The notes below the pieces were generated by a model that had not been told where the DNA came from, searched no databases, and saw only the letters and a list, made by a program, of their open reading frames with translations. Below, piece after piece: positions 14,775 to 25,858 of a DNA stretch of 64,000 nt; position 1 is the first letter of the stretch, and each line of letters starts with the position of its first letter. The stretch comes from Clostridioides sp. ES-S-0010-02 (GTDB lineage Bacteria; Bacillota; Clostridia; Peptostreptococcales; Peptostreptococcaceae): contig CP067345.1 of NCBI GenBank assembly GCA_020641055.1, forward strand, positions 1,977,317 through 2,041,316, given 5' to 3'. Position numbers and translations under genes: made by a program.

Positions 14775-15470
14775 TTGGTTAAATGTATAGAATTATCAGT
14801 GAAGGTATACCTTCTTGAAAATATTTATTTAGATAATGTAGCCAAAGAAATATGCAAATTAATAGATGATACATTAATTATGGAAGATAAATATAGAGAG
14901 TTTCATAATAAAAATGAATTTAAGTATTATTCTTTCAATCTGCTATATCCTTTAGAAAAGGATAAAATTTATAAGAAGGATTGTATCTACACTTTTATTA
15001 TTAGAACAGTAGATAGTGAGTTAGGAACTTATTTTATGAGGAATCTAAAAAATCAATATTCTGATAAAATAAAGGTCATTACAATGAGTAAAAAAGTAAT
15101 TCCTAAAAAACATATTGAAAGTATTTATTCTATTACTCCAGTGATAGCAAAGTTTGAGGATGGATATTGGAAGGGTAGTAATACAGTAGAAGATCTGGAG
15201 AAAAGAATTAGAGAAAATTTAATAAAAAAATACAACGAATTTACCAACAGCAAGATAGATGAAAATTTTGAATTATTTAATATGATTAAGTTTATAAACA
15301 AAAAACCTATTTCCATGAAATATAAAAATATATCCTTACTTGGAGATAAAATAAGTTTTAAAGTATCAGAAAATGATATGGCTCAAGAAATTTCAAACTT
15401 TGCACTTGGAGTAGGGGTTGGAGAAATCAATTCTCGTGGATTTGGTTTTGTAAACTATAGATGGTTATAG
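14775..15470 (+). CDS. cas6: CRISPR-associated endoribonuclease Cas6 (type I-B)
   Basis: Processes the CRISPR transcript into single crRNAs by cutting in each repeat. The C-terminus has the glycine-rich loop of Cas6, 'GVGVGEINSRGFGFVNYRW', and the RAMP-type ferredoxin folds precede it. I place the start at TTG 14775, because GGGGGGTG lies 8 nt upstream; the in-frame ATG at 14757 would put that site inside the gene and has no site of its own. 231 aa from TTG. First gene of a tightly packed cas operon; its end overlaps the cas8b ribosome site. Confidence 0.93.
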   Translation: MVKCIELSVKVYLLENIYLDNVAKEICKLIDDTLIMEDKYREFHNKNEFKYYSFNLLYPLEKDKIYKKDCIYTFIIRTVDSELGTYFMRNLKNQYSDKIKVITMSKKVIPKKHIESIYSITPVIAKFEDGYWKGSNTVEDLEKRIRENLIKKYNEFTNSKIDENFELFNMIKFINKKPISMKYKNISLLGDKISFKVSENDMAQEISNFALGVGVGEINSRGFGFVNYRWL

Positions 15471-15481
15471 GAGGTGAAGGT

Positions 15482-17215
15482 TTGTTAAAGGATTGCTTAG
15501 AGATTTTTGAAAAAGAATATAGGGCTATAGGGAATAGTCTTATAACAGATAATTATGTTTTATCTGAGGGCTCATATGTATTGGTAAAAGATTTTTCTAT
15601 CATAGAAAAATTGGAAGTTTCAAAGGGTAATAGAGATAATACAGAAGAATTATATAGCAAGTTTTCAAAACTGGATTACTTGTCAAAACTGGTAGATATG
15701 AATAAACCTATTGATGACAAAAAGATAATTCATAGTAATAACTATCTTTCATTTTTTATTAAAAAAGAAAATTTAAGACCCGACAAAAATAACAGCATAA
15801 AGCTTACAGAAGATATTATTAATAACTATTATGATGTGTTACTAAATCCAGGGCTTAAATATGATAAAAAGAAAAAAGAAATATTTGATTCTATGGAAAA
15901 AAAATATGGTAGAACAGATGAAAATAATCTAAATAAGGTAAAGGTGTGGATAAAAAATAATATATTTACTTTAGTTGAAGATGTAAAAAAAGATAAAAAC
16001 TATTTAAAAATATTTTTTGATGAAGAGATAGATATATACAATATAGAAAGTCAAAAATATGTAATTCCCAATATATATAATAAAAATGATTTTAATGTAA
16101 CTATTGATGGTAAAACCTATGGATTACCAAACAATAATATGCAGTTAAATGCAAAAAAGCCATTTTTAGAATTAAAAACACGAAAGAAAAACTCAACACC
16201 ATATCTAATTGATGAAGATGAAGTTTTGTTACAGAAAGCTTTCTTTGATTATTTAATGAATAAAGCATCCAGTGGAGAAGAATTAGTATATATAAGTAGT
16301 GAAAAAGGAATTCATAGGAAAACTGACATACCAAACGAATTTAGTGGCTATATACTGAGGATAAAAAAGGGTAAAGAATTAGAAATACATGATTTTGATA
16401 CTGTGGTAAATTTAAATACTAAAATAAAAAAAATAAATGTAAAGTTTGTAATACCAATAGAATATGACAAGTATGGTTTAAATCCAAGTTTAGAAGTAGG
16501 ATATATTAATAATCTTAAAAAATTAGAAAAAACTATTGATACTATATATTTTAATACATTTATGTGTAATAGTTATTTCAGAGAAGTTAAAGAAATAAAC
16601 TTAAATGATTTAATTCTAAGAGATATATTGGTTAGAAATAGAGATGGGTTATATACATGGTTTTATAAAGGTAGGGATAATATAGTAAAACAAACTTTTT
16701 CAAACTATTCTATGGAGATAATTAAAAATTCTATAAAAAACAATAACTATGTAAAAGCCAAGGAACAGTATAACTTAAGAATAGCTATAATAAATTATTT
16801 TTATGGAGGATATAAAATGGCAGATAAAATAAAATATATTAGTGAATCTTTATTTGAAAAAATAAATTCTAAACAAACACAATGTATACAAAGTGATGAA
16901 GAATACTATTTTGCAATTGGACAATTAGCTTCATATCTTATATCTAAAAATAAGTCATCAAAAAATAAAAACCATTCTCTAATTAATCCTATATTAAATG
17001 CACGAAATAAGGAAAAGCTTATGCTAGAGATAAGGAAGTTGTTTAAAAAATATAATTATGCCATAGATTATGGTAGTAAGAGGTTTGATAATTTATATGC
17101 TATGATTGTAGGATATGAAGTAGAAGATAAAAAAATTAATGGGGATTTATTAATAGGTGGTTACCTATATTCTAATTTAATATATACAAAAAGAGAGGAG
17201 AAAGAAGATGAATAA
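15482..17215 (+). CDS. cas8b: Cas8b/Csh1 large subunit of the type I-B Cascade
   Basis: Large subunit of the interference complex, expected to recognise the PAM and help recruit Cas3. The N-terminus '[16 protein letters not shown]' and '[19 protein letters not shown]' match the Csh1 pattern; the middle is lysine-rich and variable, as usual. The family is poorly conserved, so position between cas6 and cas7 adds most of the confidence. AGGAGGTG at 15469-15476 favours TTG 15482 (577 aa) over the upstream ATG 15461. It overlaps cas7 by 8 bp. Confidence 0.9.
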
Positions 17216-24346: not shown

Positions 24347-25345
24347 TTGGGAAAGACAAAATATATTGGCTCAATGGGAGAGCTTTCAAGAAAAGACAAT
24401 TCAATATGCTTTAGAAAAAATGGAAAGAATGTGTACATACCAGTAGAAAATACTAGCGAAATATTTTGTTTAAATGAAGTATCATTAAATTCTAAATTAC
24501 TTGATTTTTTATCGAGAGCAAATATTGTTGTTCATTTTTTTAATTACTATGGTGGATATAGCGGAACCTTTTATCCTAAAGAATTTTTGATAAGTGGAAA
24601 GGTAACTGTAGCTCAGGTAAAAACCTTTGAGAATAGAAGAGAAGAAATAGCAAAATCTATAGTTAATGGTATAAGGATTAATACAATAAATACATTATCA
24701 CATTATTATAAACATGGAAATTCAGAAATACAACCATTATTATCACATCTAAAAAAAGATTCTCTAAATAAATTAGAAAAATCGAATAATATAAAAGAAA
24801 TATTATCAGTTGAAGGAGATATTTGGCAAATATTTTACTCTTCCTTTAAATATATTTTAAGAGAAGAATTTATTTTTAATAAAAGAGTTAAGAGACCACC
24901 AGATAATCCCCTAAATGCTATGATATCATTTGGAAATAGTATATTATATGCTAAAACTGTAACTGCTATATATAATACCCATCTAAATCAAAGTGTAAGT
25001 TTCTTACATGAACCAAGTGAAAGTAGATTTTCTTTAAGCTTAGACTTAAGTGAAAATTTTAAACATGCAGTAACATTTAAAACTATATTTGATTTAGTAA
25101 ATAATAGAAAAATAAATGTTGAAAAACATTTTGATAAAAAATTGAATTATTGTATTTTAAATGATGAAGGAAAACAGCTTTTTATAAATTCCTTAGAAGA
25201 AAGGTTAGAATCTGTAAAAGAGCATCCAAAATTGAAAAGAAAGGTAAGTTTGAAAACATGTATAAAACTAGATGCTTATAAAATATTAAAATGTATAATG
25301 GAACAAAAAGAATTTATTCCTTATAATTTAAAATATAGTCTATAA
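24347..25345 (+). CDS. cas1: Cas1 integrase (type I-B)
   Basis: Metal-dependent integrase that inserts new spacers with Cas2. Catalytic residues visible: Glu in 'SVEGDIWQIFY' (about 156), His in 'FLHEPSESRF' (221) and Asp in 'SLDLSENFK' (233). TTG 24347 is the best start: AGGAGG at 24333-24338 lies 8 nt upstream, whereas GTG 24338 overlaps it. 332 aa. Directly follows cas4; cas2 is unusually far, about 220 bp downstream. Confidence 0.94.
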   Translation: MGKTKYIGSMGELSRKDNSICFRKNGKNVYIPVENTSEIFCLNEVSLNSKLLDFLSRANIVVHFFNYYGGYSGTFYPKEFLISGKVTVAQVKTFENRREEIAKSIVNGIRINTINTLSHYYKHGNSEIQPLLSHLKKDSLNKLEKSNNIKEILSVEGDIWQIFYSSFKYILREEFIFNKRVKRPPDNPLNAMISFGNSILYAKTVTAIYNTHLNQSVSFLHEPSESRFSLSLDLSENFKHAVTFKTIFDLVNNRKINVEKHFDKKLNYCILNDEGKQLFINSLEERLESVKEHPKLKRKVSLKTCIKLDAYKILKCIMEQKEFIPYNLKYSL

Positions 25346-25564
25346 TTTTAAAAATAAATAAAATTCCTTAATGTAATAACACTAGAATTATAATAGTGAT
25401 ATTATTATTAAATATACATAATATACTATTATAATAGTGCAAATTAAAAGTAGAAATTCTCAGAGATAGTTGAAAATATGAAAGGAGGAAGTTCTGAAAA
25501 ATAATTATAACATTTTGATTTATTGAAAGTTTATATGTTTTTCAGTTTAAGTAATATATTATAT
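25346..25564 (+). promoter_or_regulatory. unusually long cas1-cas2 gap with direct repeats
   Basis: Two copies of ATTATAATAGTG (25387-25398 and 25428-25439) lie in the gap, each next to a partial inverted repeat. A strong AAGGAGG at about 25481-25487 is followed by no usable start codon in frame with cas2, so it looks orphaned. The gap may hold a promoter for cas2 or be the scar of an insertion or deletion. Confidence 0.5.
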
Positions 25565-25858
25565 ATGAAAAAGAAAAGTAATTTAAATTATAATTATGTA
25601 TTTGTGGTTTATGATGTAGGAGAAAAAAGAGTAAATAAAGTTTTTAAAATATGTAAAAAGTATCTTTCACATTTCCAAAAATCAGTTTTTAGAGGAGAAA
25701 TAACTCCATCTAAAATTATGAGTTTGAAACATGATTTAGAAAATATTGTAGATAAAGATAACGATTTTGTATGTATAATAAAATTAATGAATTCTAATAT
25801 ATTTGAAGAAGAAATAATAGGTAATAATAATAGTAATTGTGAAAATTTAATATTATAA
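25565..25858 (+). CDS. cas2: Cas2 (type I-B)
   Basis: Small ferredoxin-fold partner of Cas1. The first beta-strand 'YVFVVYDVGEKRVNKVFKIC' with its conserved Asp, 'YLSHFQKSVFRGEIT' and 'FVCIIKLMN' are intact. 97 aa from ATG 25565, which is the normal length. No good ribosome site precedes this ATG; an upstream in-frame TTG (25523) would add 14 residues without family similarity. Expression may be weak or coupled in an unusual way. Confidence 0.88.
   Translation: MKKKSNLNYNYVFVVYDVGEKRVNKVFKICKKYLSHFQKSVFRGEITPSKIMSLKHDLENIVDKDNDFVCIIKLMNSNIFEEEIIGNNNSNCENLIL

Follow-up and report, generated by a model that had tools for sequence, protein, structure and literature searches.

The closest described systems are the native type I-B CRISPR-Cas (clustered regularly interspaced short palindromic repeats and CRISPR-associated genes) loci of Clostridioides difficile and the standard type I-B loci of other clostridia. 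According to PMC6079278, PMC8406132 and PMC3649979, the native C. difficile system has the gene set seen here, two inverted-repeat motifs in its leaders (already reported in PMC8406132) and prophage-borne arrays. PMC8406132 gives YCN as its motif, and CCN for newly acquired spacers; the gene list in Table 1 of PMC6079278 is that of the standard clostridial loci, which run cas6-cas8b-cas7-cas5-cas3-cas4-cas1-cas2-array. PMC10806358 describes two environmental RT604 strains with 45 spacers in three arrays and without detected cas genes, and places two of its genomes close to cryptic clade C-I. Here, we analysed a 64,000-nucleotide stretch of the chromosome of Clostridioides sp. ES-S-0010-02 (contig CP067345.1, positions 1,977,317 to 2,041,316; the whole stretch is called the window) that carries a type I-B locus of another kind, with leader and array standing between cas3 and cas4. 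Comparing sequences, we consider it likely that in this genome the native I-B system has been replaced by a foreign one with a mid-locus array, which would work as proposed below and whose gene order would be inherited.

The genes run cas6-cas8b-cas7-cas5-cas3-[leader, array]-cas4-cas1-cas2. All eight are open frames on the + strand, as an earlier note on this DNA had said, and the coordinates (Table 1) bear out its placing of the leader directly after cas3 and of cas4-cas1-cas2 downstream of the last repeat. Assignments based on NCBIfam, Pfam and PADLOC models yielded Cas8b (PADLOC), Cas5b, Cas7 and Cas6, a Cas3 with HD and helicase parts, and Cas4, Cas1b and Cas2, which together with a regular array define type I-B. 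To place this order among its relatives, cas genes and arrays were mapped in 67 genome loci, plus further loci of the same family and genus; a scripted count of 82 rows, from which the 24 with less than 49% Cas1 identity were dropped, left 58 including the window and hence 57 relatives. In 53 of the 57 cas3 adjoins cas4, and 43 of those 53 have an array at most 0.8 kb after cas2. No array lies within 0.8 kb after cas2 in the window, and the array separates cas3 from cas4 there and in just two relatives, L010 and L145. In a third locus (L116) an array immediately precedes cas4 at the end of a contig. In a fourth (L011) the window's order is cyclically permuted, with cas4-cas1-cas2 standing ahead of cas6 and the array following cas3. 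The distant locus L067 (Thermovorax) likewise has cas4-cas1-cas2 before cas3 and the array after it. The window's order is rare, yet common to it and its nearest relative L010, from a Romboutsia metagenome-assembled genome (MAG). The earlier note was therefore right that type I-B genes usually stay together with the array at one end, which holds in this family, and that this order is unusual; its proviso that close relatives might have the same order fails for most of them and applies to the single nearest one. No description of this order, or of the replacement, was found among open-licence PMC papers, a weak negative given that subscription papers mostly lie outside that set.

The locus is part of a foreign block (Table 1) that is absent from the orthologous site in all seven congeners compared by blastn, one genome per species. 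Its left edge lies just after the palindrome of the ispG terminator, homology from the ispG side running to 14502-14516; on the right, homology resumes at 26428-26486 in five of the seven congeners and at 27896 in the other two. The G+C content of the block is 24.2%, versus 28.4% and 27.5% in its flanks. No integrase or transposase was recognised by eye among its open reading frames, and a plasmid origin was dropped after a search of megablast sensitivity through 72,556 plasmid records gave no match to the locus.

In this genome the block accounts for every Cas1, Cas2 and Cas3 above cut-off, one of each; the congeners have one to three Cas3 proteins apiece above the NCBIfam cut-off. Each of the seven congeners has a single Cas1 match, only 40-41% identical to that of the window, with cas4-cas1-cas2 and the array together and the array after cas2. 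The native repeat also differs (GTTTTATATTAACTAAGTGGTATGTAAAT): allowing up to three mismatches, it occurs five times in the genome under study versus 74, 82, 58, 162, 38, 86 and 29 times in the congeners, while the island repeat has 54 copies here and none in the seven. The flanks of the native operon of the closest congener (G005) align to positions 897842-903106 (93-95% identity) and 911532-915593 (81-94%) of this genome, between which 8.4 kb of other genes stand in place of the operon. The native I-B operon no longer occupies its site, and by this comparison the locus is best read as a horizontally acquired system that replaced the native one. The former cas site (903107-911531) appears by eye to encode a TetR-type regulator, a response-regulator/GGDEF/EAL protein, a large hybrid histidine kinase and an HPt-like protein. 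Elsewhere, at 1605020-1605370, lies a relict native array with a partial native-type leader, one good repeat and two degenerate ones. The genus thus offers a traceable case of CRISPR replacement, with the native operon gone, only a few repeats left of the native arrays and a new system present.

The spacers of the chromosomal array and of an 18-repeat array in a prophage of the same genome were compared with 50,697 phage records. Each array matched eight records, among them six (chromosomal) and five (prophage array) of Clostridioides phages. The flanking motif was counted over seven Clostridioides-phage protospacers; H3, H6 and H26 (RefSeq twins), H19, H23, H24, H25 and the extra H7/H21 sites were left out. 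Two candidates had been dropped before the count, L170 on the ground that the phage record resembles the repeat and not a spacer, and L171 with 27 of 35 bases matching. The 5′ flanks, from chromosomal and prophage spacers together, read TCT, TCA, TCA, TCA, TCG, TCA and AGT. This TCN motif occurs in a genus whose published system reads YCN. TCN flanks in six of seven cases and the leader end TTTTACAGTG on the cas3 side support the orientation given to the array; Rfam CRISPR-DR3 matches all 30 repeats, though placed on the opposite strand. An apparent self-target of prophage spacer P10 at position 3408 of the window (28 of 37 bases, AAA flank) was judged to be chance. The L170 record, gut phage Dulem virus 30, contains a single sequence resembling this repeat type (28470-28520), and the island repeat had no exact match in public viral contigs.

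Interference and spacer acquisition are predicted for this locus. According to the proposed scheme, Cas6 would cut the array transcript in each repeat to yield CRISPR RNAs (crRNAs) with the 5′ handle AUUUAAAU. Cas8b-Cas7-Cas5 would then bind the crRNAs and recruit Cas3 to 5′-TCN targets. Cas4-Cas1-Cas2 would insert new spacers at the leader end, beside cas3. They could act on two prophage arrays as well, the leaders of which have this end and the inverted-repeat arm in common with the chromosomal one. Residues E147, H212, D224 and E227 of Cas1 (numbered from MGELS) belong to the charged positions that are conserved in 97% or more of 56 rows.

Several observations weigh against a replacement by a fully working system. 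All protospacers match imperfectly, at 31-34 of 35-37 bases, and AGT stands in place of TCN at one of the seven. Cas8b scores 81.8 bits with TIGR02591, under the cut-off of 104.05, and the I-B-specific Cas7 model TIGR02590 gives 28.5 bits, far under its cut-off of 171.55. The ATG of cas2 at 25565 has no obvious ribosome-binding site upstream, and this, together with the 219-bp insertion between cas1 and cas2, may weaken adaptation. A hairpin before repeat 1 could limit transcription of the array, and a second prophage of this genome keeps decayed native repeats and no new array.

The layout poses the question of whether transcription of the memory array governs the genes that extend it. Array transcripts reading into cas4-cas1-cas2, as the earlier note envisaged, are possible. 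A consensus scan of 14400-26700 (12.3 kb) returned a single terminator-like site, versus 1.3 expected by chance, lying 3′ of cas2, and none between array and cas4; the trailer folds no better than its shuffles (z -0.5). The first 130 nt after the array were then scored in 36 loci, five of which gave no result since they lack 130 bases or a recognised array. Among 31 loci of standard or rotated layout, a single one shows a terminator-like site there (shuffles, 1 of 93), and the missing terminator was dropped as evidence for read-through because the other 30 lack one too. The window's own trailer does score in this test, with an A+T-only hairpin of -7.1 kcal/mol, and those of L010, L145 and L116 do not. 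A promoter scan covered the best 60 of 103 promoter-like sites. The candidate upstream of cas4, the extended -10 TGATATACT, was equalled or beaten in 356 of 2000 shuffles. Of the two signals by which the earlier note would have separated array and adaptation genes, the consensus terminator is missing but uninformative, and the cas4 promoter candidate is no better than chance. Our guess is that transcription of cas4-cas1-cas2 would most likely be part leakage from the array and part a weak promoter of their own.

The strongest of the rival explanations takes the order to be a neutral by-product of module shuffling, cas4-cas1-cas2 having their own promoter and the arrangement no functional consequence; we put its chances a little short of even. 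It accords with the TGATATACT candidate at 23777 and the AGGTGA before the cas4 ATG, with the mobility of modules in the family (the permutation in L011, the adaptation genes before cas3 in L067, a distant Cas3 in L012, L020 and L147) and with the statement of a review (PMC6079278) that I-B systems are often spread over several operons. It is weakened by the shuffles that equal the promoter candidate and by the trailers of L010, L145 and L116, in which no clear counterpart of TGATATACT was seen by eye. The neighbour of this type of adaptation module in L012, L020 and L147 is a Cas3 of only 23-25% identity, which points to module exchange.

A second explanation makes the array a regulatory device. 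Here, cas4-cas1-cas2 would be expressed mainly by read-through from the leader, Cas6 would trim the transcript in the last repeat, and every added spacer would make the path to cas4 longer, so that growth of the array would damp adaptation. The shared strand and the 132-bp trailer, which folds no better than shuffles and has no consensus terminator, fit this, as do the short distances from the last good repeat to cas4 in L145 and L116 (79 and 93 bases, a span that includes a degenerate repeat), the contrast with the two prophage arrays, each closed by a terminator-like hairpin (z -2.9 and -3.0), and an order that seemingly arose twice. However, terminators are just as scarce after the arrays of standard and rotated loci, the window's trailer does score with its A+T hairpin, and array lengths (30 repeats in the window, 28 counted in L010) fall within the range of standard loci. 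Moreover, pre-crRNAs of up to 1000 nt are reported for C. difficile 630, whereas in the window about 2.1 kb separate repeat 1 from cas4; leader-proximal crRNAs are reported to be the more abundant there, with a gradient falling along the arrays (PMC3649979, PMC8406132). Such precursors and gradient argue that read-through over 2 kb would be weak, and we think a regulatory role rather unlikely. The strong hairpin at 21704-21738 could stop cas3 transcripts or slow transcription of the array; by eye in the alignment it is peculiar to this leader, and was not seen in those of L010, L011 or the prophage arrays.

The order itself looks inherited from a Romboutsia/Faecalimicrobium-type lineage. The nearest Cas1 proteins are those of the Romboutsia MAG (82%) and of Faecalimicrobium dakarense (79-80%). 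In a Cas1 tree of 56 rows the window, L010 and L011 form one clade (100/100), whereas L145 and L116 fall in a separate 43-row clade (95/91, bootstrap not settled). A quick Cas3 tree of 54 rows has L010 and L011 as sisters (99), the window outside them and L145 among standard loci. L010 (uncultured Romboutsia sp.) shares with the window the identical order, the repeat GATTAACAGTAACATGAGATGTATTTAAAT and the leader end TTTTACAGTG; it differs in that its last repeat is degenerate, cas1 and cas2 lie one base apart and there is no strong hairpin before repeat 1. L011 (F. dakarense) also has its array directly 3′ of cas3, but its cas4-cas1-cas2 stand upstream of cas6. On the simplest reading, the mid-locus array is old in this trio and L011 was rotated from that order.

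The mid-locus array would have arisen by a rearrangement that placed leader and array 3′ of cas3 instead of cas2. Most of the 43 relatives of standard layout have the same gene set, their 30-nt repeats are related and their leaders, with a long-range inverted repeat, are homologous; the difference is that in the window leader and array follow cas3. Of 46 leaders, 32 contain an inverted repeat whose arm 2 stops 64-73 bp short of repeat 1, five have one elsewhere and nine have none; the arms covary between lineages (TTTATCCCA/TGGGATAAA, TTTACCAGG/CCTGGTAAA, TTTGCAGTGA/TCACTGCAAA). Since leaders are homologous across layouts, leader and array appear to have moved as a unit. Arrays are also found among separate cas modules in the type I-A loci of Sulfolobales, where interference and adaptation genes likewise form separate units, although that is another subtype, and an archaeal one.

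The trees suggest that a similar order arose a second time, apparently separately, in the branch of L145 and L116. Alternatively, the cas3-array-cas4 junction was transferred between lineages. The best Cas4 segment of L145 is 76% identical to the window's, compared with 50-68% in most standard loci (74% in L031), which speaks for a transfer. Set against this, Cas1 and Cas3 of L145 sit in clades without the window trio, given an unsettled bootstrap for the former and only a quick tree for the latter, and the leader arms of L145 and L116 differ from the window's. We regard a transfer as unlikely. An in-match TGA that had suggested a broken Cas1 in L145 sits directly before the protein start, so that this Cas1 is whole.

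Beyond the gene order, the surprising result is the replacement of the native system together with new-type arrays in one prophage. Two arrays of this type flank a BRO-like gene in a prophage that shares its tail genes with phiCD27 (87% identity across 48% of the stretch retrieved). In phage phiCDKH02 a cassette of the form array-BRO-array carries native repeats (five and three copies). The BRO regions are 81% identical, and short stretches outside the arrays match the flanks of the second phiCDKH02 array at 72-86%; the prophage cassette is on the other side of the tape-measure gene from that of phiCDKH02, and the related stretches of phiCD27 and phiCD418 have no array. About 120 bp before the 6-repeat array stands a relict native repeat with three substitutions and one deletion, followed by a new-type leader; nothing like this relict was found in the 64-kb window. 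The second prophage, at about 2332000, resembles phage CD1801 (88% identity across 78% of the stretch retrieved). It has a cassette related to that of the first (about 2332100-2332275), with three degenerate native repeats but neither a leader nor any repeat of the new type. The first of these three repeats, together with the flank upstream of it, aligns with the relict of the first prophage and its flank (88%, 205 bp).

The relict and the flank shared by the two prophages imply that one native cassette was exchanged and another decayed. After the swap of the host's I-B system, then, the native array of one prophage would have been exchanged for new-type arrays that left a relict native repeat, its sister cassette would have decayed, and the chromosomal Cas proteins would serve both chromosomal and prophage arrays; we judge the chances of this series of events to be evenly balanced. 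The decayed repeats of the second prophage count against it, and the match of the first of them to the relict counts in its favour. The alternative is that the prophage already carried these arrays when it arrived from a different host with this type of system. Its leaders are not copied from the chromosomal leader as it now stands, which means that the new arrays have no recent origin in this locus; such a host may be their source. If an exchange did occur, phage-borne CRISPR arrays can follow a change of host Cas type. The two prophages offer a natural experiment in which such arrays keep up, or fail to, with host Cas specificity.

It is also conceivable that the ancestor never had the native system and that native-type repeats arrived with mobile elements, given that four of the five lie in two small relict clusters, one within a prophage. 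All seven congeners, however, carry the native-type Cas1 and its array, and the fifth repeat marks the right junction of the native operon site: the native array of G005 has six repeats and a degenerate seventh (L161:15065), and the repeat at 911532 aligns with this last one. These points make a native-free ancestor very improbable, and favour replacement. Finally, an assembly or binning artefact is barely credible, since the genome is one 4.26-Mb contig (99.97% complete) with synteny to congeners on both sides of the block, the same order recurs in the unrelated assembly L010 and the spacers match Clostridioides phages.

Table 1. Positions of the locus and of related prophage arrays; window numbering unless another is named.
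Feature	Position	Strand	Evidence or remark
Foreign block, ~11.9 kb	14504..26437		blastn
cas6	14757..15470	+	TIGR01877 82 bits, above cut-off; PADLOC Cas6b 316.5 bits
cas8b (Csh1-type large subunit)	15461..17215	+	PADLOC Cas8b CAS-I-B 597.7 bits, nearly full protein length
cas7	17208..18197	+	PF05107 132.6 bits, above cut-off; PADLOC Cas7b
cas5b	18199..18942	+	TIGR02592 201.8 bits, above cut-off
cas3 (fused HD nuclease and helicase)	18966..21536	+	TIGR01587 and TIGR01596 above cut-offs
CRISPR leader, 207 bp	21537..21743	+	begins at cas3 stop codon; conserved end TTTTACAGTG; aligned with 12 other leaders
Leader inverted-repeat arm 1, TTTATCCCA	21579..21587	+
Leader inverted-repeat arm 2, TGGGATAAA	21665..21673	+	ends 70 bp before repeat 1
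Strong terminator-like hairpin adjoining repeat 1	21704..21738	+	-14.8 kcal/mol, z -5.2
CRISPR array	21744..23686	+	30 identical 30-nt repeats, 29 spacers of 33-38 nt
Trailer, last repeat to cas4, 132 bp	23687..23818	+	no G+C-containing terminator found; A+T-only hairpin
Candidate extended -10 TGATATACT	23777-23785	+	in trailer upstream of cas4; not significant
cas4	23819..24313	+	PF01930 159 bits, above cut-off; TIGR00372 above cut-off
cas1	24347..25345	+	TIGR03641 Cas1b 384 bits, above cut-off
cas1-cas2 gap, 219 bp	25346..25564	+	A+T-rich, with palindrome
cas2	25565..25858	+	PF09827 73 bits, above cut-off; PADLOC Cas2b
Terminator-like site	25966..25984	+	sole site of consensus scan; 3′ of cas2
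Prophage array, 18 repeats	2591460-2592613 (genome)		repeat one base different from the island's, GTTAAACAATAACATG...
Prophage array, 6 repeats	2596703-2597065 (genome)		repeat one base different from the island's, GTTAAACAATAACATG...
Relict native repeat in prophage	4815-4842 (L131, reversed)
Prophage arrays	4936-5298 and 9388-10541 (the above two in L131, reversed)

Some details of the locus concern starts and spacing. No further copy of the repeat with up to six mismatches was found on the + strand of the window beyond the 30. The frame of cas6 starts at ATG 14757, and an in-frame TTG at 14775, where the earlier note lets the locus begin, is a possible alternative. Cas1 probably starts at TTG 24347, 8 nt 3′ of AAGGAGG, with GTG 24338 also possible, and Cas2 probably at ATG 25565 in a frame that opens at TTG 25523. 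The gap between cas1 and cas2 compares with spacings from a one-base overlap to 2 bases apart (-1 to 2) in five relatives read; in loci L043, L045 and L056, too, blast maps point to gaps of roughly 170-220 bp, and no other full copy of the gap sequence was found in eight genomes. About 80 nt 5′ of the cas2 ATG an AGGAGG is followed by a short frame that resembles a broken beginning of Cas2. Small open reading frames just 3′ of the prophage arrays resemble the type I toxins reported next to C. difficile arrays.

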